Shown: positions 1 to 63,051 of the stretch, one piece after another
Layout of the letters: every line of letters begins with the position of its first letter
Position numbering within the stretch: position 1 is the stretch's first letter
Origin: Acarospora socialis
Taxonomy: Eukaryota; Ascomycota; Lecanoromycetes; Acarosporales; Acarosporaceae
Assembly: GCA_025617375.2 (NCBI GenBank)
Contig: JAMYGW020000002.1
Location: forward strand, 496,001 to 560,000
Reading direction: 5' to 3'
Length of the DNA: 64,000 nt
Made by a program: the position numbers and the translations under genes
The notes under the pieces: model-generated
Seen by the model: only the letters and a program-made list of their open reading frames with translations
What the model was told of the DNA's origin: nothing
The model's database searches: none

Positions 1-3000
1 GTGGCCTTTTCGCTTGCCGCCTCGGCGTCGTTGCGGAGGCTCTGCTTCGCCGCGGCCATGACGCCAGGGAACCACTGCCCCAGCCGGCCTTTGTCCACGT
101 AGTATTGTAGGAGGTCGTCTTCGGTCCGCAGGTCGCGTGCCACCGGCTCACGGTATTCCTCGGCGCCGTCGCCATACCGCCGCCGAAGCTCATTGGCCGT
201 GCAGCCGACGCCGAGGACGTCAGAGGGGGTGAGAGGGTGGTCGGCGTCGGCACCTTCCCAGAGACCTTTGCGGGCGGACGGTCAGTATTGCGAAGTAGGT
301 AGAGGGGTTGGTGGCAGGGTGAGGGCTGTTACCTATTCTGTGGCCTTCCTTGAAGGTCTTGAACAGTGCGGTGGCGCAGGTCTCGACCTCGACCTGAGTG
401 TCGGCCTTCAGCTCCGTTTTGTTGATTGCTTCCCAGTCGTCTTTGATCATACAGCGCCGCCAGATAATCTTCTTGAGGAGAGTGCTGAGTTCCGGTTCGC
501 GAGCGGCGAGGCCGCTAAGTTTGAGTACTTGAAGAGCGATGATGTGCTCCTGACCACCGAATTCTTCCCCGTCGTATGAGATCTCGTCAATGAGCGTAAG
601 AACATCGATGAGCTCCGTGGGGCTCAGCACTTCGCGATGAACGAGCTTAGTAAAGCCATGTTCTAGTACCGTGCGTAACGCCGGCTTCCCTTCGACGAAG
701 TGCTTTGCAAACTCCGCCATAACAAGGTCGACTTCGGCCGTCTCGTCAATCGCCGCCTGTATCGTTGGCAGAATATGAGCATACAATCGATCTTGAAGAG
801 CGATGAGAGATAGCTCATAGTCGATTCGAGGGATCTGATCACTTTCATCTGTCTGATGTGCATGGTCGGCCTGCTCGGACACGGCCATCCCTGCCAGTTT
901 GGCGAGCGACAGTTCAATCTTTTTGTTCCAGAGAACCGTCTCATTGGTTAGAGCGTGAGTACGCAGGGTACGAGCCGCTTCACGGTAGTTCCTCTCGTTC
1001 ACCACTTCGTTGATCCAGCCTATCTTCGCGTACGCCGGTTCGCTTCGTAAAAATCGTGTTAGGAATTCCTGTACCTCAGTACCATCATCCAACAAGTCGG
1101 CTAACAGACCGTTCGAGATTTTCTTCGAGAACAACGCTCGTGCCCACTTATCGCCATAGGTGTGAAAGTATGAGGCCATGCGCTCCTGGATGGCTTCCAT
1201 GCGACGATCGAGAGCCGCCTCATCTTCGTTACTTAATCCAGGTTGATGCGAGCGGTTTGCAGTGTCGCCTAGGGCTTCCACGATCAAGTTGACTAATGCT
1301 CCCATGTCGCTGTATTTCTCAGCCAGAGCGATTCCTTCCTCTAGCAGACCGATTTCTGCAAGCTTTGTGATCTGGACTCCCCTTATGCCGCTATGTGCCG
1401 CTCTGAGATATTCGCCATCCGCTTTGTTCAGCTCATCATTCTGTGCCCTACACCACCTGATCCGTTCGATGTATATTTGACAGCACACGTCAACTTGACG
1501 TGCATTCTCCCCAGCGACTTTCTTCACCAGGATTGGGTTGGGGTCCCCTTCAGCCGGGGGTTTATCGTAGTACTTGAAGGTCAACTCTCTTGCAAAATCA
1601 ACCAACTGTCTGGTGGTAAGAATTGTCGGTTTAGTGGAAGTCCAGAATTCTGGTAGTCCTTCGAAGCCTTCTCTAAGGATACCGCCATCAAACACCTCGC
1701 TTCCCAGCCCGTATAAGCCTGCATTCTCTTCTCGAAACTTCAAAGCTGTCTCCAGTGCTCCGAGAGAAACATCATTGGCTTCGCTAACTAGTCTCAAAAG
1801 ACTGGGATGGTCTTTGGTTCCCTCTTGATATAGCTCTTGGACCGCATTGAAAGCCCACGGGACAACGTACTGGATACGCCAGACGTCTTTGATGAACCAG
1901 TGCCTTACCGGATCTGACTCGCCTTGTTCAGGCTGATTTTCGGTTTTGAATTGCTCGTGAAGCATCTCCACAAGTTCGTAGAGAAGGCTGCTTTGATCTT
2001 TGCCTTTTTTCTTGAGAGAGGCGTCGTAGTTCTTCCATACCACCCTGGCCGCAGCCAACTTTTCCGCATTCCACAACAGCTTCCACTTGGCCAGCCTAGA
2101 AAGAGGGGGGTAATTCGAATTGGTATGTCGGATCAGATCCCTCAGAGCCGTCGCACGGAGCTTTAGCTGGAGATCCAGAGAAGGCGTTATCGCCGGGAGG
2201 AAGTTCGAAGAAGATCTCAAGATCTCGTCGCTGATTTCCAATGCGGCCGCCTCAACTTCTGCTTGTGCAAAGGTAGTCGTTGATTTTTTGGTGAAATCAA
2301 TCAGATTCTGTGCCATGCTTCCATAGAACACAGCCTGCTCAATTTTCGTCTTTGCTGTAACCTTCGCTTGATTGAAGGCATCCGCTCCATCCTGTATAGG
2401 AAGAGCTGCTACACGTACAACGCCAAAGCTTCGGATCATCAGAGCGCAACTCGGTAGCTTTTGCGTGCTACCTTGGTCCTCCACAGAGCAACCAATGACC
2501 TCGAAGCCATCATTCTTTCGAAAATGAACAACGTCTTGGAAGGGCTGGGGAAGTTTGTGAGAGTCCATCAGCAGCTGAGACTCTGGCGATTCCTCGATTC
2601 GCACCAGCGATACAAGGACGACCGCGGTTGCAAAAACCACAAAGGCAGTTTGTGAGCGGTCAGGAAGATAGACTTTTGGAGTCCAGTTTTGCGAGGAGGG
2701 TGTGGGCGTTGTATAGCATGTGATGGGATGGACAACGTCCACGATTACTGAATCCTCAACGAGCGTCATTTCCACCAAGGCGTACTTGGTGGAATGTTCG
2801 CCAGATAAGGCGATTAGTGCAAGGAGCCCGAAGCCTTGATTGCCACCCACGAGTGCAATTTCTCTGGAGCGTTCGTTCGTGGTCACGATGGTAACATCGA
2901 GGACCATGAGAGTGTGCTCCCTTTGATCGGCTCCTGTTGCTCCACCTTCTTTGAGTGCAGCAAGCAAATCTTCCTCTGCGTCAATCTCATGCTGAAGTGA

Positions 3001-4164
3001 GTCGTTCCCACTCCAGTTGAGGTCCCACATCTGTAAGACGGCCTTGGATGTTGCCACAATCACATTCCTTTGGCCTCGTGAGCGTGATGTGCCTGCACTG
3101 ACAGCGACAATATCTCTTTTCCATGCCCCACCGCCAAAAACGTTCTTCAAGCCGCCCAGCAGGGTACCTGTCTGATTGTTGCCACTCCCTCGCAAGAACC
3201 GGACATTGATAGCTGGCTTCCCTTGTAGATCTCTCACGTTCAAGTGCGCAATCCTTCCAGTGCTGAAGGTAAGCACGAAACCTGCTGGCTCGGCACTTGT
3301 GACATTCGTGACGGTTTCGCCATACAGCATGCTACCAGTGCTGCCTTGGAACCCATGTTGCTTCTGCTTCATCAAATCCTCAGTCGCGGCTGTTGATATA
3401 TCCTCCCAGAACGTTACTCTTCCAGTAGTTGGTCCGACCACGAGAAGACCTGGTTCAGCTGAGGCAGGACCGGGAACCAAAGCACCAAGAGGAAGTGGAT
3501 CAGATACATTTCTGGCTGGATGTGGCAACGTGATGGTATATGTTCTTGAAGGGTCTGGAGAGGTATTATTCGACGTGTATGGCCATATTATTGCATGAGT
3601 CCGTGTAAAGACAAGAGTCTGGCTTGTTTTGGCGGAGATGAGGCTTCGCATCCGCTCTGCAGAGATCAGTATCTACTCCCACACCTAGTACTTTCCCATA
3701 CCTTTACTGCTTCGTATAAGGTCTGGTAGGGCTGGAAGCTGCGCAACAATGTAGTGGTCGTTTTTGGTCTTGTGAACACCAACAGCGTTAGCACATTCAG
3801 GCAGTGGAGACAGCATCTTGAAGGGCACGATGCTTACAAGTACAACAGATCCGTCCCCATGTCCTCCCCTTTTCTCCCTTTCTTGCTTTTTACCTCCTCG
3901 ATATGCCAGGCTTGTAGTATCGGAACTCGCATCGCGAGTACTTCGTCCAGATACAGCATGGCCATTAGCGACCAGTGATTCCGTAGCGTGTCCGTTCGTC
4001 TGCTGCTCCGAGACCGGTTCAAAGGTGTCATGTGCAAGAGGCGTGCGCACTCGCTTTGCCGGAGGACGGACGCCAAAAGAATCATCAGAGTGTGTTCTCT
4101 GGCGTCGCCGAGGGTTGCGTTGCGAAGGAGGGACGGCATGGATTGATGCCTCTGGGGAGAACAT
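1..4164 (-). CDS. NUP133: Nucleoporin Nup133-like, 3' end cut by window edge
   Basis: Structural nucleoporin of the Nup84/Nup107-160 Y-complex, which scaffolds the nuclear pore. The model is complement of 1..265, 333..3656 and 3702..4164. The two introns are 67 and 45 nt with GT-AG borders, and the frame is kept across both. About 1350 residues are visible and the protein continues past base 1. The first ~150 residues are low-complexity and basic (PPAKRVR, a likely nuclear localisation signal). A beta-propeller-like half follows (residues ~150-600), then an all-helical half resembling the Nup133/Nup155 C-terminal domain. The start ATG at 4162-4164 is the first in frame. Identification rests on overall architecture and family resemblance rather than one diagnostic motif. 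Length fits fungal Nup133 of about 1150-1400 aa. Confidence 0.85.
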
Positions 4165-13811: not shown

Positions 13812-15481
13812 CAGAGAAAAAGACAGTCAGTCGCATGTCCAGCCCAACATGTCCCTTCTGCACAGCTGCACCGGACACAAGTCTCATCTCAATATCTGCT
13901 GAGCCATTGCTCTGAAATCGGGAGCTTACAGAAAAGACCAGCCTTAGAAAGGTTCAATGTCCGCTTCGAGCACAAGTTCCTACGTCGCAGCAACATCGAC
14001 GCCATAGATCATTGCAAGCCTTTCAAACTCGATCGAACGCCGGCGTGTGACGGATCCCATCCAGGAACCGACATCCGTCATGAATTAGGCCAATATGCTT
14101 CTCTTGATTCGCCGGAGCGGTGCTGCTTGTTCGGTCTGTACAACAGGAGTATGCTAGAGACGCAGAGACGGAGTTCCCAGCTGCAGTTGACACCTCATGA
14201 TTCATCACGCACATATCAAAGATAGAAACATGAGACAGAAGAGCGTTGACAATTCATAAGGAAGGTCAATAGTTTGGATCTAATTGTTGCCGTATACATA
14301 ATACATGGCTAATGAGCGGTCTACTTGATAAAACAGCTCGAAGCTGGGCGAAGTTAGACATATCTCCTGAACGGGAAACCGATCATTGCGACGGTCGGTA
14401 GTCGTCCAGAAGCCCTTTGGTTCGAGGTCCTCCTTTGTGGCTCGTCGTTGGCGGTCTTTCTGTTCTGCGTCTTAATTGGATTACATCGCGCATAACTACG
14501 GAGTATCTAAGGTATATCTGTACGAGTACCGGAGGTTGGTTCGTGGGGTCTGTTCAAGATACTCGGTGTGAACAAAGCTGGCGAGGCAAGTTGCTACAGT
14601 TTTGCAATCGTCAGTGAAGCTACTCCGTATATTTAGGTAGCGATATACTGTTAATCGACTCAGAAGGTATCTTACCATGGTGAGTGAATTGCGCTTTTCA
14701 GCTTGCAAACCGCAGGTACTCTGCAGGCCAGCAAGGCAGGACGTGGCTAAGGTGCCTGTGGATCAGATGTACTCTACAAGTACTGTGTATGGCGAAACGA
14801 AGACAGCTACAACGTATCAACCATACAACTATAGGGACACGCAAGCTGGAAAAGCCTCTCGGTCGTACTCGTAATAATGGAATAGTTGAGTGGGACAAAT
14901 GAGAAAGCTGAAACGCTCTGAAGTTCGACGAGCGAGTCGAGCCGCTTTCTTTCGGTTCCTGGATCGGCGGGCCATCTGAATCGCTGATTGGTTGTTGATC
15001 CCCTCTTCCCCCTGCAGTAGCCTCTCTCTCTCGTCCCGCTTCCTCCGCTTCCGCGTCTCACCGCCGCACGTGTAAGACTGGAATTCGTACGGCGTACGGA
15101 GGTACTTCAATCTCTGCAGCGCCCACATTCCTTCTCCTTTTCCTTTTCTCTTCCCCTCACCCTCTCTGCTATTGCTTAACGGACTCGTGTGACTTCTTCA
15201 TTCACTCATTTTCAAATCAAACGGACTTGATTGTCATTCATTCCTTCTGAGATCATCTGGCATCTCAATTTGCACTCTTTTATTACATTCACAACCACAT
15301 CGGTCGAAAGCCCCATCCAAAACGCAAGTTCGAAACACTGAACACACAACTCTCACTACCAATTAGGTCCACCAAAATCGCCAGTCGATTCACCCCCACA
15401 GTCATTAAGCTGCACGAATATCGCGATTAAGCTCCTATATAGAATCCTCATCCCGACATAGAATCAATACCATCCACCAAA
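13812..15481. other. Long intergenic region before the secreted protein gene
   Basis: About 1.67 kb with no convincing gene. Near 14494-14515 and 14620-14640 lies an inverted pair of the motif TACGGAGTA/TACTCCGTA. From about 15125 the strand becomes pyrimidine-rich, then C/A-rich, as expected for the promoter and long 5' leader of the gene at 15482. Short ORFs here look like noise. Confidence 0.5.
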
Positions 15482-16418
15482 ATGAAGAGAGTTGCCATCA
15501 TCGCCCTTCTTGCTACCCTCGTCACGGCTGTGCCGTTTGCGAAACGAGACATCGTCTGGACGACCACCACTCAAGAAGTCACTGAGACTACCGTTGTTAC
15601 CACTACCATTTGGGTCGATCCTGCCCCAGCATCGGTAGCGATCACATCGAGCGCTGCTCCTCCTGTGACTACGACAGAGTCCGCTCTCGCCAAACAATTC
15701 TTCGAGAATGCTCCCTCGTCTTCGCCACCGTCGTCGTCGGTCACGTCTTCAAGCACAAGCCCTGTAGATGTACCAGCCTACACTCCATCCTCTACTCCAT
15801 CTCTGTCCTCGTCCTCGTCTTCCAGCGCTGCCTACGTTCCTCCTCCTCCTCCGCCGGCCAGCTCCGCCCCAACAACCGCAGAAGCGCCGGCATCCGCCTA
15901 CGTCCCGCCGCCTGCCCCCACTTCGGTTGCACCTACCACGACTTCGGCTGCACCAGCGACCCCCGCTCAAGGCATGGGTACAGTCCCAGTCCAGTCCGGC
16001 GCCGCTCCCGCAGTCGGTGTTGCCGACACCAGCATATGCGCACCAGGCTCGCCGTGTTCGGGCGATATCACCTATTACACCGTAGGTCAAGGAGCGTGCG
16101 GGATTACCAACGACGGCTCCAAGGACAACGTCATTGCCTTGCCTCATGAGATGATGGGCCCACTGAGCAACAGCAACCCCTACTGCGGGAAGACCGTCAC
16201 CATCAAATATAATGGCAAGACGGCCAAGGCCGTTGTGGCGGACAAGTGTGGAGATTGCGTAAGTCGCTAAGATTGTTTACCAGGAAGACGTAACCGATGG
16301 CTAATTGAATTCCGTTGTACAGAAAGGTCAATCTATCGATCTCTCCGAGGTGCTCTTCAAGTCGCTCTCCGATTTGACTCCAGGACGTATTCCTGGTGTT
16401 GAGTGGTGGTTCGACTGA
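15482..16418 (+). CDS. Secreted barwin/RlpA-like double-psi beta-barrel protein
   Basis: Secreted or wall-associated protein of the expansin-like/RlpA-like double-psi beta-barrel superfamily. Relatives bind or loosen cell-wall polysaccharide or act as protease inhibitors; the role here is unknown. The exons are 15482..16258 and 16323..16418, giving 290 aa. A signal peptide occupies residues 1-16 and a Lys-Arg pair at 21-22 is a possible Kex2 site. A long Ser/Thr/Pro-rich linker (~40-175) is probably O-glycosylated. The barrel domain (~178-290) has GDITYYTVGQGACG, AVVADKCGDC and the terminal GVEWWFD. At least six cysteines could pair. The 64-nt intron falls just after CGDC, so reading through it would truncate the domain. 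Confidence 0.9.
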
Positions 16419-40666: not shown

Positions 40667-41473
40667 TCAATGCTGACTCTCATTCCTTTCCACCAGATCT
40701 CCCACGCCCAGACCCCGACCCACCTTGACCTTCCTCTTCTTCGCTTTGCCCTTCTTCTCCTTCTCCTCACCCTCCCCTTTCTTTCCCACATCGCCCACGC
40801 CTTCCCCTTCGTCCTTGGCCCCATCTTCGCGCGAATCCCCATCACTTTCCGCATCCAGCGCCTCCTCTCGTATATAGCTCAGATCCATCTTCATACTGTA
40901 CGCGTCCTCCCCATCGGCGTAATATTTCGCCTCGATCTTCTCGACCTTGAAGCCCAGCGTGTCCCGATACAGACGCAGGGCCGCGACGTTCGAGACACGG
41001 ACGTGTAAGGAGACGTAGTGCGCGCCGAACGTCTCGACCATTGCCCTTTCTGATTCACGGGAACAATCATCCAATCAGCCTTCCGCTCTCCCTGAGACGT
41101 GTCCTCCCCTACTCCCCTCCCTCATCACTGCACAGACACCAGGAAGAAAGAGGCACCTACGACTCTGCCGCATCAACTTCTCCGCCAGCCCCAACCGCCG
41201 ATGCGTCCGCATGACGCTCAAACTCGTGATATGACCGTGCTGCACCCCGTCCGCCGGCTCCTCCTCCATCTTGGCCAGCACATAGCCGACGATCTTGGGG
41301 GGGTCGTAGGGGGTTTTCTTGGGGCGGGAGGCGTCGACGGCGACGTAGGAGAGCTGCGGCCAAGACAGGGCGTGGTAGAGGTAGTATTTGCAGAAGTAGT
41401 TTTCCGGCAGGTTGGTGATGTTGGCGGTTTGCACGTGCGGGATGTCGGAGGGGTGGAGGAGGCGGATGTCCAT
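40667..41473 (-). CDS. NAA10: N-alpha-acetyltransferase catalytic subunit NAA10/ARD1
   Basis: Catalytic subunit of the NatA complex, which acetylates nascent protein N-termini at the ribosome. The model is complement of 40667..41049 and 41161..41473, giving 231 aa with a 111-nt intron. The GNAT fold covers residues 1-150. NLPENY at 21-26 holds the substrate-loop glutamate Glu24. The acetyl-CoA motif RRLGLA is at 92-97, followed by LMRQSQRAMVE across the junction. [19 protein letters not shown] and [19 protein letters not shown] are typical. The C-terminal tail (~155-231) is highly charged, Lys/Glu/Gly-rich, as in other Naa10 proteins. Confidence 0.95.
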
Positions 41474-42035
41474 AGTTGGGGAGTGAGGGGAGTGGGATGT
41501 GGTATAAGGATAAGAGGTGGTTATGAAAGTGGAAGTTTGTTGCCGTGGTACTCGTACTGTCAGGCGTGGAAAAGCCGGGCTGAGATGTATAGGGCTGCAG
41601 ATCGGACAAATTGTCTGTTCTAAGATAGAGTACTCGTACCAATCGGCAGCGCGCCAGGCTTAGCGAAGGAGATCGACAACCGCCCTCCGCTCCCGCAGTG
41701 TCTGACGCTAATGGATATCAAGAAGCGCACAGTCCATTGATCTTCAGGATATGATGGGTAACCATTACCTCCTAGATGACTCTCTATCATGGCAGCCTTC
41801 TCTATTTGTCCGAATGATAATGGATCGAATGCGGCTTTACGGTCGGTACCTGCGTACCGATGTGAAATCAGGAAACCGCTATCCACGCTAACGACGTCAC
41901 AAGCTTGGAGCTTCAGAAGTTCCCGATTCGGTAGTTGCGATTGAGTGTTAGAGGTTTGTTTGTGTTGCAAAACAATTCACTAGATTCACTGGCGCACATA
42001 ACATCAACACTTCTCTCTTCTTCTCTTCTACATCT
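41474..42035. other. Intergenic, NAA10 promoter side
   Basis: Region between the NAA10 start and the tandem repeat array. A 116-codon minus-strand open frame at 41620-41970 has no recognisable protein and no conserved look. Its bases 41474-41640 contain the NAA10 leader. Confidence 0.5.
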
Positions 42036-42990
42036 CTCAACTCCACTCGGTCGTCACACTTTGAACTGCTTTACAGAGCATTCGAAAGTAGCGACCCTTT
42101 TCAGACTCAATCGGTCGTCTTGAGACATACTTCGAACTCCATTGCAAAGGCGCACAAAAGTGGTCTTCTTCTTCAAGCTTAAAACTCACTTCTTGACTGA
42201 GACGCGATTTAAATCTCGAGCTCACTTGTTTCATACTCTTCTGATTTCTTCTCGGGACCTTCGATAGTAGCTACGCTTTTCAGACTTGAACAGTTACCTT
42301 GATACATTACTTCGAACCCAGTTCCGAAGGCGCGCGAAAGTGTTTACCTTCTGCAAGCTCAATATTCACTCTTGCAATTGGAAACCAACACTTCTCACCT
42401 TCTACTTCGTTCAACCCCACTCATTCGACACGGTGTCAATCGCTTTACGGAACGCTCGATACCAGCTACGCTTTCAGACTCAGCGATTACCTTGACACAT
42501 TACCTCGAACTTCGTTTACAAAGGCGCACAAATTTGATCCCCTTCTTCAAGCTTAAGACTCAAATCTCCATTGAGACGCGACTTGAGCTTCGTTCTCATT
42601 ACACTTTCGATTGCTTTACAGGCTGCTTCACGGGGACTCGACGGTAGCTACGCCTTTCAGACTCAAACGGTTACCCTTACTTCGAACTCCGTTCCAAAGC
42701 ACACGAAAGTGTTCACCTTCTTCAAGTTCAAGACTCATCTCGATTGCGCGTACCGAATCTCATTCTCACAACACTTTCAACTGCTATAAAGGATATTCAA
42801 CAGTAGCTACGCCTCTCAGACTCAAACAGCTACCTTACTTCGCACTCCGTTCTAGAGGCACACACAAGCATTCACCGTCTTCAGGCTCAAGATTCACTTC
42901 TCCATTGGAACGCGCCGTGATTCTCAAACGTCACTTGTTCTATACACTTTCGATTGCTTCACGGGAAGTCAGGGTTGTTCCGTTCATCCA
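42036..42990 (+). repeat. Diverged tandem array, about 180-bp unit, five copies
   Basis: Five diverged copies, plus a weak sixth, of one unit lie head to tail. The anchor AGTAGCTACGC followed by TTTCAGACT occurs near 42088, 42266, 42463, 42643 and 42802, so spacing is 178, 197, 180 and 159 bp. Other parts recur in order in each unit: TTGCTTTACAG-like, TACTTCGAACTCCGTT, AAAGGCGCACGAAAGTG, TTCTTCAAGCTCAAGACTCA and GAGACGCGACTT. The array ends about 180 bp before the ATG at 43171. Reading frames are interrupted and unit lengths are not all multiples of three, so it does not look coding. Confidence 0.85.
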
Positions 42991-43170
42991 GTCAGAGAAG
43001 TCACCTTAAGTGTATACTACGAACTGCCATACCAAAGCTAGGGTATTTTGTCCTGTACAAGCAACATTCACTCTTCAACAGAAGCGCGCCCTAAATTTTG
43101 ACTCCAGCTACTAGCTACTCCTTCGTGCTACACCATCACATCAAAGTATCTCCGAGTCCTAGTCGACGCA

Positions 43171-44658
43171 ATGGCGGAACCCCAAGAGACCCAGTATGTG
43201 CCATCGTGGACGATTGCCATGGAAAAGATAAAGAAAGATGACGAAGACCGAGCTAGAAGGATCGCTGAAAGGCAAAAGAAAGAGAAAGCTAGAGCTAAGA
43301 AGCTCAAGAAAGCCTCTATGGGGAAGGGGCCCGTCGGCGACCAAAAGAATGGCGTCAGCAAAATTGGAGGCGGAATCCCATACGAAGACGATGAAGACGA
43401 CGATTTGGATACTCCCCGCGCGCCACGAGAGCTAGGAATCAATGAGCTCATCAAGAAAGCAAAGGAAACCTTCGCGAAGAACAAGGCGAGACGAGAAGAT
43501 GGAGAAGTCGCGCGTCGTACTGAAGCCGCTCGCGTTGAGATGCGTCTTGAGCTTGAGGAAGAGCAGAGAGCCTACCTGGCATCCGTCGTACACAAGGAGG
43601 CAATCGCACAGTTAAAGAACGAACTGAGAGCACAGGCGATGGAGGAGTTGAAAGCGGAAATCTACGAGCAAGGCGTCAAAGACTTCCTTGCCATGAACGA
43701 AGCCAAGATGAAGGAGCAGCTCGAAAAGCACCTTCTCGCCCACCTCACCGAACACCTACCAGCGCAGCTCGCAGCAGAACTCAAGCCGGAAGTCGAACAG
43801 AAGCTGAGACAAGAGCTCGAGGGCGAAGTTCGCGCACAACTGATGAGGGAACTGCCGGCCAAGCTGGCACCAAAGATCGAAGCCGCCCTCAAGCCCAAGA
43901 TCGAAGAGCGACTTCACCAGGAACTCAGCGCGAAACTCGAGGAAGACCAGCGCGCGAGAGCAGACCTGAAGCGCGCCTCACCGGACGACGACTTCCCTCG
44001 CGACAACAAGCGCCGCCGCCCCTCCTACGACTACGACGGCGAGCACTCCGGCGACCACGAGGAGCGCGTCGCCAGCCTCCTCGAGCGAGCCCTCCCCTCC
44101 GCGTACGACGACCTTCCCGACTATGAAGACGTCGTCGGCGCGGAGGAGGAGGTGCTGGCGGCTCCAAAGGAGAAGAGGGAGGAGGGGCCGCCCACGCCCA
44201 ACGAAGACGAGGTCTTCGACATCCGCGCCTACCACCGCCAACAGGCGCTCAAGCGCGGGCGGCCCGTCGAGGAAGACGAGGAGGGCGACGACGATGACTT
44301 CGAGATCCGGAAGAAGCTCGTCGACGCTTTTTGGGCGTCGATGGACTCCCCTCCCCCCTCCCCCTCCCCCTCCGCCACCCCGTCCGCCTCGCCGTCGCTC
44401 GTTGACGAGGGCCGCAAGGGCGACAACGGCGTGGGGCATTGGGAGGAGGTGGACGGGGAGTCGGAGTGGGTCAGTGCGGAGGGGCCGGAGACGACGGACG
44501 GGGAGGATGATGAGGAGGGTGAGGAGGATGATGAGGAGGAGGATGAGGAGGAGGAGGAGGAGGAGGAAGAGGAAGAAGAAGAAGAGGAAGGGGAGGGGGT
44601 CGAGGTGCGAGGCTCCTCGAAAGAGGACGCCATCCTCCTCGACTCGGACCCCGAGTAG
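43171..44658 (+). CDS. Uncharacterised highly charged coiled-coil protein
   Basis: No family recognised. A single exon gives 495 aa. Residues ~20-55 are Lys-rich. A long charged helical region (~85-265) is dominated by Glu, Lys, Leu and Ala, with a repeated pattern such as ELKPEVEQKLRQELE and ALKPKIEERLHQELS; this predicts a coiled coil. A basic patch NKRRRPSYD (~278) may be a nuclear signal. The C-terminal ~140 residues are very acidic, with a run of more than 20 Asp/Glu near 450-475. The last residues DAILLDSDPE resemble a SUMO-interacting motif (hydrophobic core then acidic). Its 5' side carries the ~180-bp repeat array. Nuclear role is inference. Confidence 0.75.
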   Translation: MAEPQETQYVPSWTIAMEKIKKDDEDRARRIAERQKKEKARAKKLKKASMGKGPVGDQKNGVSKIGGGIPYEDDEDDDLDTPRAPRELGINELIKKAKETFAKNKARREDGEVARRTEAARVEMRLELEEEQRAYLASVVHKEAIAQLKNELRAQAMEELKAEIYEQGVKDFLAMNEAKMKEQLEKHLLAHLTEHLPAQLAAELKPEVEQKLRQELEGEVRAQLMRELPAKLAPKIEAALKPKIEERLHQELSAKLEEDQRARADLKRASPDDDFPRDNKRRRPSYDYDGEHSGDHEERVASLLERALPSAYDDLPDYEDVVGAEEEVLAAPKEKREEGPPTPNEDEVFDIRAYHRQQALKRGRPVEEDEEGDDDDFEIRKKLVDAFWASMDSPPPSPSPSATPSASPSLVDEGRKGDNGVGHWEEVDGESEWVSAEGPETTDGEDDEEGEEDDEEEDEEEEEEEEEEEEEEEGEGVEVRGSSKEDAILLDSDPE

Positions 44659-49139: not shown

Positions 49140-52100
49140 CTATTCTTCTTCGCTCTCTTCACAGCTCTCCTCCATTGCTCGACTTAGAGCCATGTCAGCA
49201 GCTTCGTCCCAGCCACCTTCCGCCCCTCCCTGCACGTCCCCCATCTCCTGAGGCTCCTCTTCGTCTAACCCGAACAACTCCTCATCCCTTGCCCTTTCTT
49301 CCGCTTCCCTCTGCCGCTGCTCGTCCTCCATCCTCTGTTGCTTCTCCGCCACCAACCTCTCCAGCTCTTCCTCCACCAGACCGGTCGTTGCAGCCGTTGC
49401 CGCCACCTTCGCCCTCCGCTCTTTCGTCGCCTTTTGTTTCGCCGTCGTCTTCTGGCGCCTCTGCCGTTTCCGCTGCTGCTCCCGCTCCTCGGCATGCTGC
49501 GAGGCCAGCAGCTCGCGCTCCAGCTCCGCCTCGAGCTCGGCCTCGGCATCAAACACCGGACCTTCGACGTCGAGCTCGATTGCCGTTGATGGTCGCTTGC
49601 CGCGAGCTGCTGGGCTCGGTTTCGTCACCATGTGGTTTGATTTGTCGGGGAGCCACGAGTAGGTTTTCCGCTTCATGGTAGTGCGGAGCGCGGCCGCTGC
49701 AGGCGACGAAGGCAGAGGCGGAGACGGCGCTGACGGTAGAGTTGCTAGTGTTGATGATGGCTCTGGGGTACCCTCGGTCAGATCAATGGAGACTCGTTTA
49801 GACGCTGGCGGTGTCGGTTCAGCAGTGGGGACGGAACGCTTCTTGTAGACACCCGTGAAGGGTCCATTATCCTGCCATACCACATCTACACGCGGTTCAC
49901 GCCCGTTTCGGTTGGTGCGACTAGGAGGAGCTCCAGACAGCAATGGCGATGTATAGTTCAATTGAAGTGAGGCAGGGCGTGAAGCTTCGAAGTCGAACCA
50001 GGCTTTCCTCAAACGCTCAGCCTCCACCGTCTTGTCCGCCAACTTACTACGGAGACTCCTAAGTTCTCGACTCATTGACTGCCCCTTCGTTAGACCTGAT
50101 TCGGGATCCGTAGTGGCCCACTCGCGAGCCGCTCTTTTGAATCTGTCACGCTCCTTTTGTAAGATGGCGTTCCTCTGTAGAAGGTCGTGGTTCCTTAGGG
50201 AAAGGCTGTGATTCTTGTATAGCAGGTCCATGTGATCGGCCGGACACGCATCACCGGCTGGTTGTTGAGAGTCTCTTGGTGGAGCGGGAGGGTCACTGGA
50301 TTGGGGGAACGTCTCAATGAAGCTAATGACTCGAGGTACTATGTCGGCATGATGAATACGACTAATTATTACTGAGGTAATGGCATGAAGGCCCTTTTTT
50401 GCGGTATTGACAAGCGCGGGCGAAACTGGGATCCGTTCTGTTGGGGCCGACGATCCATCGCTAGATGATTCACTCGAGGACTCGTCAGACTCGGCCGAAT
50501 CTTGTGCGGATGATGCTACGTCGGGTGATCCAGTCTTTGAGACGGAATCGTGGCTCGGGGCAGGTGGCGACGGCACAGAGAGATGAGGCTTCGATTGTAC
50601 GGCTGCCCTGAGCTGCGAGGTCGTTCTCCGAGATGGTCTGTTGCTTAAAGTCGGCGTAGCAGGGTGCGGATGTTGAGACCCGGGACGAAGAGTTGGAGCT
50701 GTTGCAGTTATTTCAGTTTCCAGCGCGGATTGCTCCATAGACTTTTGATATCCTGTAGTAGGTGCGGTGCTTCTTTCGTCCGTCTGGGAACCAAGTAGAT
50801 GTTGCAGTCGCCGCGATCTCGGAGCGTATGGAGACTCGTAAGCTTCTTGGCTGGGCAATGGTCCAATGCGATAAGGTAAGGCTGTTTCGATTAGCAGACC
50901 ATGTTCTTGAGTGGTAGTGTCTGCAGTGTTATCCAAGCTCGTCTTGACGTGAATAGAGTCATTATTGCACTTGTCAAACTGTCCAGTGAATGGAATCTCC
51001 GCCGGGCTCATTCTCGTCAAGCTCATCGTATGGAGAGCTTCCGCCGAGTTGCTTTGCGTAGGCTGTGCCGAGAAGGAGCTGGTCGCTACTGAAGGTTCAG
51101 GCAACCTTTTCGGCTCTTGATGGTCATGTAACGGCACAGCTGTAGTGGAGGGAAGTCTCCCGAGAAGAGCTTCCGCCGAGTTGCTTTGCGTAGGCTGTGC
51201 CGAGAAGGAGCTGGTCGCTACTGAAGGTTCAGGCAACCTTTTCGGCTCTTGATGGTCATGTAACGGCACAGCTGTAGTGGAGGGAAGTCTCCCGAGAAGA
51301 GCAGACCTCTCGTTGTGAGCAATTTCGGGTTGCGAAAAGAGAGTGAAAAATTCGTCCGTTTGAGGAGTGTTCGAAGAATTCGCAATTGAAGCAGAAGGTG
51401 CTGTGGAGTTTGGTTGCTCATTAATTTGGCGCGACATCGCTCGATTTTCTGTAGCCAACGCAGTTGTAGTGATGACTCGCGAAGTTTGCGGTAGAGTAGA
51501 AAGCGGTGTACGGAAGCGCTCTGAACGTGCTGAATGATGGGTTGAATGGCCTGACGAGATGTCTGAGCTTCTTGGAGTACTAGGACCTTGAGGTCGAGGT
51601 TTTAATGCAAGCGTTGAAGTAGGTCGAGTTGGGACGTAATGAGGTTTGGAGCCTGTGCCACGTGCAACCCTAACGATATTATTCGTCGGGCTGTGACTGC
51701 GGCCGCGCAACGCCCCACTTGCCTCTGTTGAAAGCACTCCAATGTCCTCATCATTCAACCCACGTTCCCATAGGTCCACACCCAAGTCCAATTGTTCCAC
51801 CAGAGCATCTTGAAGGTCGTAAAACAGTGGACATGGTAAGTCCTCCTCCGTCTTCTGTCTCTTATACGGACGAAGCTCTTCTAGGCCGCCTTTTGCATAA
51901 CTTTCACCGGATCCAGAGTCATCCCCCAAGACAACACACTCTCCTTCCACGCTGTGGATGAGTCCATGGACGGGCTCTCTCGCTCCGGACTCATCGATCT
52001 CCCTTACAGCCGTTGATGAACCTTGACTAACAGACACATTGACTGAATAGGCACATGTGTGCACCTGGGAGCCGTTCCAATCACAAGAGCGAGAACGTGC

Positions 52101-52556
52101 TGGTTCTTTTGACACCACAGAAGCCTTGTGTGGCTCACTACGTGCTCTGTCGCCTGATCCATCTGCAGTCTTTCTGCATGAACGACCAGGTGCGCAAGTT
52201 GTCTCATGTCGTTTGGATACTGTGTTACCTTCTGGTTCTATCTCCACGGTGTCTCGAGTTTTCTCTTGTGAACACACATCTTCATGTGCTTCTCCGTGCA
52301 ATGTACTCTCTTCAGATTTTGACGCAATCCCCCTTTTGCTGCCGTTGTTGAGCTCCCTAAGAAACTCTCGCTCATGGTGGACTTTGTCCGGCCTCGAATG
52401 GCCTTGCTTGTCACACTCTGTCTGTATCTGTGATCCGGGGAGAAGTGTAAGCCCCAGATCGGTTCTATCCACTTCACCTACATCTGAAGCGTTCGAAGAA
52501 GCATAAATACCTTCTTGTGTTCCACCCTCCATCTTCTTGAGCGATGGGGTAGTCAT
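49140..52556 (-). CDS. Uncharacterised 1138-aa protein with internal 44-residue duplication
   Basis: No family recognised. A single exon gives 1138 aa from the ATG at 52554-52556. Most of it is polar, low-complexity and Ser/Thr/Pro-rich. Residues ~420-507 contain two identical 44-residue repeats (ALLGRLPSTTAVPLHDHQEP and following). A more ordered segment (~730-860) has VISRIHHADIVPRVISFIE and a coiled coil (NHDLLQRNAILQKERDRFK and EWATTDPE). KRVSIDLTEGTPEPS (~920) matches a SUMO-interacting motif. The last 150 residues are a charged helix, Glu/Arg/Gln-rich, ending in an acidic ESEEE. Nuclear location and a scaffold role are inferences. Confidence 0.72.
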   Translation of the reverse strand: MTTPSLKKMEGGTQEGIYASSNASDVGEVDRTDLGLTLLPGSQIQTECDKQGHSRPDKVHHEREFLRELNNGSKRGIASKSEESTLHGEAHEDVCSQEKTRDTVEIEPEGNTVSKRHETTCAPGRSCRKTADGSGDRARSEPHKASVVSKEPARSRSCDWNGSQVHTCAYSVNVSVSQGSSTAVREIDESGAREPVHGLIHSVEGECVVLGDDSGSGESYAKGGLEELRPYKRQKTEEDLPCPLFYDLQDALVEQLDLGVDLWERGLNDEDIGVLSTEASGALRGRSHSPTNNIVRVARGTGSKPHYVPTRPTSTLALKPRPQGPSTPRSSDISSGHSTHHSARSERFRTPLSTLPQTSRVITTTALATENRAMSRQINEQPNSTAPSASIANSSNTPQTDEFFTLFSQPEIAHNERSALLGRLPSTTAVPLHDHQEPKRLPEPSVATSSFSAQPTQSNSAEALLGRLPSTTAVPLHDHQEPKRLPEPSVATSSFSAQPTQSNSAEALHTMSLTRMSPAEIPFTGQFDKCNNDSIHVKTSLDNTADTTTQEHGLLIETALPYRIGPLPSQEAYESPYAPRSRRLQHLLGSQTDERSTAPTTGYQKSMEQSALETEITATAPTLRPGSQHPHPATPTLSNRPSRRTTSQLRAAVQSKPHLSVPSPPAPSHDSVSKTGSPDVASSAQDSAESDESSSESSSDGSSAPTERIPVSPALVNTAKKGLHAITSVIISRIHHADIVPRVISFIETFPQSSDPPAPPRDSQQPAGDACPADHMDLLYKNHSLSLRNHDLLQRNAILQKERDRFKRAAREWATTDPESGLTKGQSMSRELRSLRSKLADKTVEAERLRKAWFDFEASRPASLQLNYTSPLLSGAPPSRTNRNGREPRVDVVWQDNGPFTGVYKKRSVPTAEPTPPASKRVSIDLTEGTPEPSSTLATLPSAPSPPLPSSPAAAALRTTMKRKTYSWLPDKSNHMVTKPSPAARGKRPSTAIELDVEGPVFDAEAELEAELERELLASQHAEEREQQRKRQRRQKTTAKQKATKERRAKVAATAATTGLVEEELERLVAEKQQRMEDEQRQREAEERARDEELFGLDEEEPQEMGDVQGGAEGGWDEAADMALSRAMEESCEESEEE
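51034..51297. repeat. Perfect 132-bp tandem duplication inside a gene
   Basis: Two adjacent 132-bp copies (about 51034-51165 and 51166-51297) appear identical at every base, including synonymous sites. The unit is a multiple of three and adds 44 residues in frame to the 1138-aa protein. Confidence 0.9.
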
Positions 52557-57726: not shown

Positions 57727-60700
57727 ATGGGCAACGCGGAGTCCAGAGAGATTGCAACCGGTAGCTTCCAGCACAGTTTGAATGATAACGAGTCGAATTC
57801 AGCTAGGCCAAAGGTATGCAAAACGGCTTTTTAGATACGTCCACTGCTTTTTGTATTTCCCATCTCGATCGGAATCACTCCCTACAAGCAGTATTATCTG
57901 TATTCTAGGATACCCTGCATACTCTCACTTCCTTCAAGTCATCCTCAGACGTCAATGATGCAGCAATGGTAAAAGGTCGGACTGCAATACGTCTTTCAAT
58001 GGTCCTCGTCCTCAGGTTAGCGACTTCAAGCTTGCTGAGGAACCCTCCACTCTCCACTCTGCCCTCGTGTGCTGGTGTTTTTCTGGACGGAGCACGCTCT
58101 ATGGAAGCCTGTGAAGGGTGCTCGCCGAGACTGCACATGTAGGCAACTCGCATGGCAAGATGTCAAGTCCTAAAGTCAAGGAATGGGCCCTACTTGGAAG
58201 CGAGGTGTAAAACAATGTCTAAGACAGCACCATAACTTGGGACACCGGTATGGTTGTAATCACAAACTGGCGTCAATGGCAACGGTGTAAAGAAGGGGAT
58301 GAGACGTTCGCAAACTACCAGTCTAGATGACACTTGGAGCGTGGTTTCCTGTTCATGGCTAGGGCCACCACCTGGTTCGGAGTGGAGAGTGGCTGGGAGA
58401 GGCTCGCTCGAGAAACTTCCGGAGGACTGAGAACCTTGAAGACAGCAGGTTGAAGACTCAATTAAAACTGAAAAGACCTGAGACGTCCTGCATGCTTTAG
58501 CAATCTTTGTGGGCTTTGCAGAAGCTACCTGGATCACTCAGACTCCGTCCGCTCAATCCGCTACAGAGCTGACATGCACACTAGAACGCTTCCACACGAT
58601 ATCAGCATCGCCAGAAGTCAAGGGGCTCATCAGGTCAGTCAATTGGCTGGCCCACGCGCATTAGTTAATACAAGTCACAGCTAGGAAAAGTACGGGGGGT
58701 ACTCACCGGTCAAACTCCAATGGTCTTGTTCTAGGAACCCCTCCCCACGATGACTCCAAACTCAATGGCCGTCTCTTTGCTGGAAACGAATCCTTTCCCG
58801 GTCACGAGAGAAGCAAAAAATCATTTAGACGGCCGAAGGGATCGAGATCCGAATCGCCCATAGCTAAGAGACGGCGCCATGACAGAGGATTCGAAACTGG
58901 GACTGCTCATTATTATACAGGCTCTCAAGCAATGGCCTTGCCTATATCGCCTCCTCAACGGCGGAATCTTGGTGCGAAAATTCCAAATAGTTGTGCAATC
59001 AATGACACAGTTGGCCAATCCAGTGGCTCCTATGGCTCAGAACCAAGCGCTCGACCAAGGGTACCACAGTATGATCAAGCCACTAATGATGGTTGGCCCC
59101 CTGGCCGATCTCCTCCGAGTTGTCCCAGATCCATGCGCTCAGCAAACACTAGCACTGCATGTAATTTCTCTAGTCTGCTCGGCACGTCCGCTGAAGCATC
59201 CGGTTGGAACCCGGGTGAAGATATAACCCGCACACCGTTTCGAGTTAATGATAGCCAAGTATATACAGATGGCAAAGCGATGGACTCAGATCCGACTTCC
59301 TCAAGCGGCGCCGCTCTGTTGACAAGCTCATCCACCGTCTCAAGCAGTAAGGTAAAGAGATGTTACAGCTGCCGCAAGCCTCAGAACGCAGAGGAGTCTC
59401 CGGCCTGGGTACAATGCTTGGACTGTAAAAACAGGAACCACCCGTTCTGTTGCACGTTTGAAGCCGCCCGAGAGCGGGGCATGGAGTAAGCTTGCATGCC
59501 TTTCTTCCACACAGTCTCAGATACTGACAATGATTAGGGACCAAGGGTCGGCGTTCCAGCGAGATGCAATATGTTTACAGTGCACAGCGAAGACGCCGAC
59601 GTTGATTCTAGAAAACAACGACGAGTCCAATTCTCCGCACAGGCAAGAACGGCCGTTCAAGCGCCGGAAGACCGAACAGCATAACATGAAGGACGTTGTT
59701 TTTGGTCAGAGATCACCACGTCAAACCGTACATTCAAATGGTTACAACCCCATAGTCACGAATACGACATGGACACCTTTCACGGCAATTGACAGCGAAA
59801 AACCTGCGTACATCGACTCGGAAACGCTAGATTTCTCGAATCCAGATGCACTATTAGAAGATTTAAGGAAGCCAGCCTCTGGTGGTTCACAGTTGGCACA
59901 GAGCCAGAAGTCGTCTATCAGAACACCTGCCCAAACAGAGACCAGTGTTAAAGGCGAGCAGCAAGAACTGAACCCAAATGTGCAAAATCCAGCAGAGACA
60001 GCTGCATGTACTCAAATCTCAGATATCAGTGGTGTGGAAGCATGTCAAACCTCCACTCAAGCTCCTTCACTGCAAGCGTCGAGAAACATCAATCAAGAGG
60101 ACTCGGACAAGCACACACATCACTTGCGGCACTCGGCCCATTCTCCAACCAATCCAAGTGCTGAAATCCAAGAGGTCAAGGTCGAAGGATCTCCGACTCA
60201 GAGCACGAAAGCAGGCAATGGAAGCAGTGATACAGGCAGCGGTTTAACAGGACCAAATACAGTGTCAAAGGACAGTGTGGTGTCCTTCCCTCTGTGCACT
60301 AGCTGCGGTATCAAGAGAGTGTTCAATACACCAAGGAACGGGGAAACGATTATTCTGTGGTAAGTCTCGCACTAAGGCCAACGAGCTCTTTCTGACCAAC
60401 CTAGCAAAACATGCGCAAATGCAAACAGATCTCTGGATACAGTTACCCAATCGCACGGTAGTTCCCTTAGAGATTCCATCAACCTTCAGATTCTCGAGAC
60501 ACCTGCCATCAATAGGAATAGCCAGCGAAATGCATCGCCTGGGCACGAGCGAGAACTTGAAGAGATCGAAAGGTCATTCAGCTTCGCAAACGGCCGTGAT
60601 GTGGATAAATCCGAGATGTGGCCCTTTGGACCCAAGCTCAAGTCGTTGGGCACAATACATAGGTCCGGAGGAAGTCCTATATTGACCCAGGTCGAGGAAT

Positions 60701-61993
60701 CTCCAGTGGCAAGCCGGGCAAATGGGCCGCCCCAATCGGAAGAATTACCAAAAAAAGCCACAGGTATCTGTTCACCTGATACTTCTCTGGCTGCTCAAGC
60801 ACCTTCCTCTGCGCCGACAGCCCTTCCTCCAGCAGAGGTTGAACTATCCTTACAAGATCACGTGGAGTGTGAACCGGGACGGGCCCGTGGGCTGAGCGAA
60901 AGGAGCGAGAAAATCTTGGCGCAAGCTAAGACCATCAGTGATCTAAGATCGACATCGCAGAAGGTCAATGACCTGACCAGGACAATAAGAGAGAATCACC
61001 AAGAGACTCTCAGAAGTGTAGCTCAGGCATCTGTGGCTCAGGTATCTCAAGATTTCAACGCAGTAATCAAGAGTATGGAGGACAAGCAGCAAAGCGCTAT
61101 TCAAGCCAAAGAAAAGGCATTGCAAGATCTTGACGCAGTAATCAAGAGTATGGAGGAAAAGCACCAGAGAGCTATCCAAGCCAAAGAACAGGAGTTGCAG
61201 CAATTAAAGGCCGAACTCGACCAATCAAAAGTCGAGAGTGCCAAGGCTATAGTATCCAGGGACCTCAGCCTCTCAACGGCCAATGATGAAATTACAAACT
61301 TGAGATCTCAACTAGCTTGTCAAGATCAAGATCAAGGCGATAACAATAGAGAGTTGATGAGACTGAGGACTGAAGTAGAAGCCCTCAAAGATCGACTTGC
61401 CTCTTCCGAAAAGTCAGCAAAAGTTGTGCCAAAGTTTATCCACATTAGTCTTTTCGATGCCGCACCTGAACTGCTACCCGAGCATGTCTTCTTCGATGCC
61501 GAAGCAAAGAAGCAGGAGATAGAAAAGAGGCCTTCCAGGAAGCAGAGGTTTGGTAGGCGACTAAACCATATACGCCAAGAACGCGGCCAGTACCCTCACC
61601 GGGAGATTTACAGGCATTCACCGAAGCCATGCGAGATCTACCGAGATGCTACCATCTGTCTAACCGAGGAGCCCACAGGATCAACTCCTGTGAAGCGTAG
61701 GGAACTCCAGGACCTCGGTCCTGGCGAGGTGATTGACGAAGACGTGCGAGGAAGCAAAAGTGAGGAGAAAGGTCCCATGTCTCTCGAAGAGATGATGGGA
61801 GTTCCGCGGAACGCGATCCCGTGCCTCGTTGAAGGCCAGTTGGCTTACCGTGAGGGTACGCGGGTATGTCTGCAGTCACTCCATCCTCTTGGGCCTCCAC
61901 TGACCAAAGCATGTGCAGGACGCAAAGGGTCGACTTTCCCGAGCGAAGGCAACGTACAAGGTTGGGCGCAACGTTGCCGGACAGCTGAAGTGA
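57727..61993 (+). CDS. PHD-type zinc-finger coiled-coil protein, 5' exons tentative
   Basis: Probable chromatin-associated PHD-type protein; no close named relative. The well-supported exons are 58681..59485, 59538..60359, 60405..61863 and 61919..61993. Further upstream exons (57727..57813, 57909..57968, 58016..58066, 58160..58204 and 58585..58633) keep frame and GT-AG borders and would give 1150 aa, but they are weak. The finger has a C4HC3 pattern: CYSC, then CLDC, NHPFCC, and CLQC after an intron. A second pair, CTSC and CKTC, lies about 270 residues later, with the last Cys restored by a splice. A basic patch IAKRRRHD precedes the finger. The coiled coil near 61000-61400 has a 25-residue repeat. 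The end (EEMMGVPRNAIPCL and DAKGRLSRAK) looks conserved. Confidence 0.7.
61055..61205. repeat. 75-bp tandem repeat in coiled-coil coding region
   Basis: Two adjacent 75-bp units encode FNAVIKSMEDKQQSAIQAKE and LDAVIKSMEEKHQRAIQAKE, 25 residues each, with several differences. The duplication lies inside the coiled coil of the PHD-type protein and keeps frame. Confidence 0.85.
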
Positions 61994-63051
61994 TTTCCTT
62001 TCATCAGCCGCATAGGGTGCTGAAGCTGCATCGGGATGCTGGGCGTTTGCTTTTATATCTCTTGGCTCGGGTTTGGGTGGAGTATCCTCCTCAATTTTGA
62101 TTATACTAAGGTACCACGATGAGCATTACCCAACGCGTCTTTGCATTGTTTCAGTTTCAACTCTTAAGCATAGTCTATCTACACAGTTGCCATATCGCAC
62201 GTCTGTTGGTCTCCCATATACGGAGTACCAAGAAGTAGAACTGGGAGATAGAAGCATGAGGACTGGCCGCATGAGCAGTTACTCCAAGTTCAGGATCTAC
62301 CTCTCAGGGACTTGGCAGGTATTCGATTAAGTCTATACAGCGCAGACATCCATGCTACCTCATATTAATAAGTCCCGCTAGGCCAAGATCCAGCGTACAG
62401 TACTATGTAACCTCGCAATTTGATTATGAAATGCTCATAGCAGAGAGCCAGCAAACCAGCCAAGAGTTTCTCACAAGATGCGTAAACATACCTAGTTTAT
62501 AAACGGTTTGGTAACGGCTTTTCACATCGATTGAGATGAATACTGTTACTTGCGACCAAGATGTGCCTGAAGTAAATAGAGACATGTTGACCTCGGTCAA
62601 TAGGGAAGCAATGATGTCATATCATTTGACATACTGTGGCTGGTGACGTGGCTTTGACCTCAGTAACCCACGCTCACAGCAACAGTAATGGTGAAAATAG
62701 GCTGATTAGGGAGTATTTGCTATACAGGAGAGTATCGTCAATACAATGAAAACACAATAAGTGATTGCAGTTATCAAATGCTGTTTTCCGTCTCACACGT
62801 TCTACTTGTGATGCTGCGCAGAAGTTGGTAGCAACCTTTTCGCCTGATGAATTTCCACCGATGTCATTTGCGATTCGATTTCCAGGGTCAGCCACACTTT
62901 CACCTTTGGCTTCTGCAGTGCGCCCCTTCGCTTCAAAAACTCCTAACATCACCCGCCTCGTCTGTCTTTTCTCCCATCCAATCTACCACAGTCCGATCAT
63001 CAAGCATCTACTCATCAACCTCACGTTCATCAATCAAACCAGTCGCTCATC
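61994..63051. other. Intergenic
   Basis: About 1.06 kb between two plus-strand genes. It contains a TACGGAGTA motif near 62220 and a pyrimidine-rich leader from about 62940. Short ORFs look like noise. Confidence 0.5.

Follow-up and report, generated by a model that had tools for sequence, protein, structure and literature searches.

A tandem array between two divergent genes

The window analyzed here, which is the whole 64,000-nucleotide stretch of Acarospora socialis DNA, carries on its forward strand an uninterrupted open frame of 495 amino acids (43171..44658), whose acidic product is coiled-coil-like as judged by eye from the sequence. This product has no match in Pfam; a scan of nine window proteins gave Pfam matches only in a nucleoporin-like frame at 220-3651. 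Searching the PDB by sequence returned no clear relative of the 495-amino acid product, the three matches obtained (E 0.49-0.5) involving its acidic tail. The divergent neighbor on the reverse strand (41075..41473, with its ATG at 41473) encodes the N-terminal part of a GNAT acetyltransferase (Acetyltransf_1, E 4.9e-7), which presumably resembles Naa10/ARD1. The 1.7-kb gap between these two divergently oriented genes holds a tandem array, located directly upstream of the start codon of the 495-amino acid gene and on the same strand.

In a BLASTN self-comparison of 41400-43400, four strong direct diagonals were found inside the array, at offsets of 179, 381, 557 and 715 (best 167 bits, E 1.8e-44), all of them within approximately 42005-42966; a fifth diagonal, at offset 341, scored 45.5 bits. 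The top self-match of 42005-43127 over 200 dinucleotide shuffles was 28.3 bits, as compared with 167 bits for the real sequence, and thus the five-copy array of the original prediction, which was made from the letters of the sequence by eye, is genuine. Tandem Repeats Finder at a score of 40 does not list it.

Unit boundaries were set at a common core, GTAGC...TTCAGACTC, and a sequence-only unit model was built from units 1-5. Core cut and unit model together place unit 1 at 42088..42266 (179 bp), unit 2 at 42267..42461 (195 bp, including insertions of 11 bp and 4 bp that unit 1 lacks), unit 3 at 42462..42643 (182 bp), unit 4 at 42644..42802 (159 bp) and unit 5 at 42803..42972 (170 bp), all on the forward strand. 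Counted from start to start, and up to the block that follows at 42973, successive units are spaced by 179, 195, 182, 159 and 170 bp; the lower bound of 159 bp given in the original prediction stands, but its upper bound of 197 bp is corrected to 195 bp. Pairwise identity among the five units is 66-76%, and the closest pairs are 3-4 and 4-5 (76% each).

The model also recovered a decayed unit 6 (42973..43127, forward strand), with a match at 42996-43127 (25.7 bits, E 4.6e-7) that reaches position 160 of the 179 in the model. At the left edge of the array lies a half unit, corresponding to the 3' part of a unit (42005..42087, forward strand), which is supported by a model match at 42029-42085 (16.2 bits, E 4e-4) and by the BLAST diagonal starting from 42005. 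No further copies were found by the model in the whole window at E up to 10. The array therefore spans approximately 42005-43127, and because the model adds a sixth unit extending to 43127, it ends about 44 bp before the ATG. The five copies predicted earlier are the clear ones, to which the sixth and the half unit have to be added, and the predicted distance of about 180 bp from the ATG fits only the last clear unit.

Absence of ATG from the sense strand

The last sense ATG upstream of the 495-amino acid gene is at 41860 and the next one is the start codon itself, leaving a forward-strand stretch of 41861..43170 free of ATG. Within 42005-43170 there are no sense ATGs, as compared with 5.1 expected (p 0.004, 1000 dinucleotide shuffles), whereas the antisense strand contains 19 versus 17.1 expected from shuffles. 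In the 525 bp that precede the array (41480-42004), there are 12 ATGs versus 11.6 expected. The corresponding ATG-to-ATG interval of 1311 ends exactly at the start codon and is the largest in the window on either strand; next in length come two minus-strand intervals, of 670 and 590, and a plus-strand one of 583.

For comparison we used a sample of the same genome comprising 20 loci of 10 kb each (L010-L029; 200 kb from contigs C1-C7, less than 1% of the genome). The interval of 1311 exceeds all 7,663 ATG-to-ATG intervals in this sample. Of these, the longest measures 1064 and falls within an open frame rich in Ser and Thr; the second, of 828, is in AT-rich DNA with 37% GC. We also compared 55 open frames that begin with ATG, do not overlap one another and encode 200 amino acids or more, collected from 264 kb, a set from which frames without an upstream ATG in the source were dropped. 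The 495-amino acid gene has the largest upstream ATG-free length among them, 1311, followed by 583 and 405. The median distance is 38 and the 90th percentile 199, the median being biased downward by the internal exons or non-genes that may account for many of the frames. Second in length among these ATG-free sense stretches is the one at 14899-15482 of the window, which extends 583 bp ahead of a 262-amino acid frame starting at 15482 and showed no internal repeat in a self-match screen.

Since copies within an array are not independent, we also simulated drift of the units, starting from an ATG-free consensus unit and applying the observed substitution matrix. The simulation gave 5.07 ATGs expected in units 1-5 (probability of none 0.005), 4.84 when indels were kept (p 0.007), and 3.00 under a stricter version in which the mutated sites were fixed (p 0.017). 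Among trinucleotides with at least two occurrences expected under drift, ATG alone is absent. Ranked by z, it is the second most depleted of the 64 in both the indel-keeping and the fixed-site versions, behind TCC or ACT, and when the array is simply compared with shuffles, TTT, TAA and ATC are more depleted than ATG. We regard these statistics as moderate in strength, good but not overwhelming (p 0.004-0.017).

RNA and strand signals

An Rfam search of 41700-43300 at E up to 5 produced one chance-level match, located in the coding region (13.3 bits versus a cut-off of 50, E 4.1). With no Rfam family matching within the array, a known structured RNA was rejected as a candidate. A tRNA-like reading based on A-box and B-box resemblance seen by eye was dropped as well; ARAGORN identified no tRNA in the window. 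The consensus RNA fold of units 1-5 is weak: 3 of its 20 pairs show two-sided change, and 15 of the 20 are disrupted or fall at a gap in one or more units. Fold energy of the putative leader, which is the stretch preceding the start codon, does not differ from that of 25 shuffles (z -0.79 for the sense and 1.25 for the antisense strand).

The same stretch contains no GTRNGT (0.5 expected) and no CTRAC branch-point-like site (3.4 expected, p 0.028), while a looser branch-site pattern occurs 6 times versus 9.9 expected. The absence of GTRNGT and CTRAC would fit retention of the array in the mature RNA, although this argument is weak because the expectation for GTRNGT is only 0.5 and the looser pattern is found six times. 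Where the consensus has CpG, the units carry CA in its place 12 times and TG only twice (two-sided binomial p 0.013, for cells that are not independent), a strand asymmetry that could reflect either transcription or selection.

Occurrence of the array and of similar arrays in the genome

The assembly that was searched comprises 31.1 Mb in 38 contigs, with closely packed genes and AT-rich repeat blocks. A 971-bp query covering the array matched only itself. The core pattern with up to 3 mismatches gave 19 matches, as compared with 24 for a reversed-pattern control; the four matches with up to 2 mismatches are all in the array (units 1, 2, 4 and 5, with unit 3 escaping the pattern), and the remaining 15 are no more than the control level. 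The array thus appears to be private to this locus, within the limits of a search that missed a 56-bp match to unit 6 at 82% identity. A dispersed repeat or transposon family was rejected in view of the lack of other array copies in this search of limited sensitivity. The earlier description of the array as not obviously transposon-derived is compatible with this result, but only as far as that sensitivity extends.

The 56-bp match lies on contig C1 (L030:1871-4334), in a region that holds scrambled and decayed pieces of the coding region of the 495-amino acid gene. The coding fragments correspond to window positions 43507-43681 (78%) and 43880-43913 (91%), and local BLAST places the piece of unit 6 (42988-43043) between them. 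This region seems to be a broken copy of the gene that retains part of its putative leader; a piece of unit 6 has thus been copied along with coding fragments, which now stand in scrambled order.

A self-match screen of the 20 sampled loci revealed tandem diagonals in nine of them (L010, L012, L014, L015, L016, L017, L020, L024 and L029), a number that sets no genome rate of arrays, as among these nine the sequence was read at L010, L012, L014, L015 and L024 only, and L024 alone was taken further. L024 belongs to a dispersed family of short diverged tandem arrays (L024:3024-3635, L031:1608-2229, L032:2152-2737 and L033:1631-2125), each of the four made up of several units, with copies approximately 110-280 bp apart. 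Inverted repeats resembling GGGAGCACTCCC and CATCATC...GATGATG were seen in them by eye. These arrays lie near open frames, and in two cases a frame (215 or 131 amino acids) overlaps the array. Matches of this type occur on contigs C1, C3, C4, C7 and C12, several being single short matches.

The array studied here is like these in consisting of diverged head-to-tail units of comparable size near genes. It differs from them in that they are spread over five contigs, contain inner inverted repeats and hold many ATGs, whereas it came up at a single locus and lacks ATG on one strand. Neither BLAST of 41401-43400 nor the unit model, run over 28 loci (230,076 bases), detected kinship between the two. 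ATG counts in the L024, L031, L032 and L033 arrays (495-622 bp) are 16, 10, 10 and 8 for the strand as given, and 14, 24, 8 and 14 for its complement; these four arrays form one family with ATG-containing motifs and are therefore a weak control. They show that decaying arrays in this genome can hold ATGs, not how many the array studied here should have.

Nature of the array

The original prediction listed a decayed repeat-protein gene among the possible identities of the array. Some stop-free frames do cross two units (140 amino acids at 42587-43009), as would be expected if the units were such a gene or its exons. However, only 12 of the 52 indels counted over ten unit pairs, which are not independent, are divisible by three, leaving 40 that are not; variable columns are spread evenly across the three phases with no codon phase; and five translated frames of the array gave nothing above the Pfam cut-off (the best, LRRCT, had E 0.17 and 13 bits versus a cut-off of 20). 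We therefore discard this possibility as scarcely credible. It is also very improbable that the unit length serves to place one nucleosome per unit: nucleosome repeat lengths do include the range of 159-195 bp, but the spacing here varies over 36 bp, and phasing would leave the loss of ATG unexplained.

The array could instead act at the DNA level, each unit supplying transcription-factor sites or a start-site module, with transcription starting within or after the last unit and the lack of ATG owed partly to chance or composition. Its position in the 1.7-kb divergent gap speaks for a promoter array, and if the leader is short the array must overlap the core promoter, because it reaches to about 44 bp before the ATG. 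Counts against 500 shuffles show a nominal excess of TTCGAA (4 versus 0.7 expected), CTTCTTC (5 versus 0.7) and YYYYCAAG (3 versus 0.7, p 0.026), which would also suit a promoter, and of ATTGG (2 versus 0.3, p 0.030). Ssd1-type, PUF, heat-shock, STRE and GATA patterns show no excess in the putative leader by the same test. The invariant columns show weak clustering, with p 0.035 when measured by 8-column variance and p 0.13 for the longest run. An excess of these four motifs is, however, what tandem copies of any kind would give anyway when compared with shuffles, and a promoter does not predict loss of ATG from one strand over all units, which makes this an unlikely explanation, though one to be taken seriously. 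Alternatively, the array could be the decaying product of a local tandem duplication, transcribed, if at all, without consequence. The genome does harbor further arrays of diverged tandem units (the L024-type matches on five contigs), this one is apparently locus-private, its unit 6 is badly decayed, and its composite RIP index is raised (0.19 versus a window mean of -0.44). On the other hand, a neutral relic would not be expected to lose ATG from one strand only, and the RIP signature is weak: at columns where C alternates with T, 28 of 101 cells have A as the base after the C, as compared with 41 of 126 at invariant columns, so that there is no CpA excess and RIP is a weak candidate for the source of unit divergence. 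We consider a neutral origin improbable, although not negligibly so.

The ATG-free, repeat-filled stretch points less to a defunct gene or a plain satellite than to the unusually long front end of an mRNA. We favor an array that forms the bulk of a 5' leader of about 1.1-1.3 kb of the 495-amino acid gene and is kept AUG-free through selection, because the loss of ATG is confined to the sense strand and runs exactly to the start codon; judged from the sequence, we give this a little better than an even chance. Of the several identities proposed originally, the repeated leader is thus the one that agrees with the sense-strand pattern, but transcription itself is a matter of inference in it. From the array, its extent and its statistically documented lack of sense ATGs, we infer that the array is transcribed from a start near or before its left edge and is not spliced out of the mRNA, and that the purging of ATGs would be due to selection on translation. 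A leader of this length would be exceptional, given that leaders elsewhere in the genome sample seem to be far shorter.

Under the leader interpretation, a segment of approximately 180 bp lacking AUG would have been duplicated in tandem, stepwise, and the copies would then have diverged to 66-76% identity. New AUGs arising in the units would have been purged by selection, because scanning ribosomes would have to cross the array to reach the AUG at 43171. The outcome would be a long leader that is still permissive for scanning and offers the same ordered short elements in each unit. That duplication of an AUG-free segment is a route to a kilobase leader without upstream starts, with each unit subsequently kept AUG-free, is a tentative proposal to which we assign somewhat less than an even chance.

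Long regulatory 5' leaders, extending approximately 1 kb or more before the main start codon, are found in the WOR1, EFG1 and UME6 genes of Candida, and the putative leader described here would be similar in length. The Candida leaders are not known to be tandem arrays, whereas nearly all of the one proposed here would be made up of copies of a single unit, and it would be AUG-free. Our literature search, which had limited coverage and used narrow terms, found no description of a tandem-repeat fungal leader and says little on the matter. The way in which 5' leaders lengthen remains to be explained, given that every additional base carries the risk of a deleterious upstream AUG. In a neutral model of 5'UTR length, leader length drifts and the risk of forming an upstream AUG is the main limit (PMC12604664). 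The array looks like this brake on AUG gain in action. In the passages of that source on this model, duplicating an AUG-free segment in tandem is not mentioned as a route of lengthening, and under its AUG-risk rule such duplication may be an easy way for a leader to grow. If the leader interpretation is true, a leader made of diverged AUG-free copies would show a simple lengthening mechanism, and the copies within it would be internal replicates from which selection against upstream AUGs could be measured in a single genome. Caution is also warranted in dismissing intergenic repeat arrays, which may be functional transcript leaders.

Other tandem repeats in the window and the sampled loci

Apart from the array, the window contains only two same-strand self-matches at offsets below 2 kb (E up to 1e-4), at 51034 and 61040. 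The former is a perfect 132-bp tandem duplication at 51034-51302 (100% over 137 bp) within a 1138-amino acid frame on the minus strand (49140-52556), and is either a recent in-frame expansion or an effect of assembly. The latter, at 61040-61199, is a 75-bp (25-codon) repeat with copies 84% identical, located in a 499-amino acid frame (60601-62100). Among the sampled loci, L010, L014 and L015 (38, 27 and 26% GC, respectively) carry arrays with a period of approximately 13 bp, which by eye are apparently shared parts of one RIP-mutated element.
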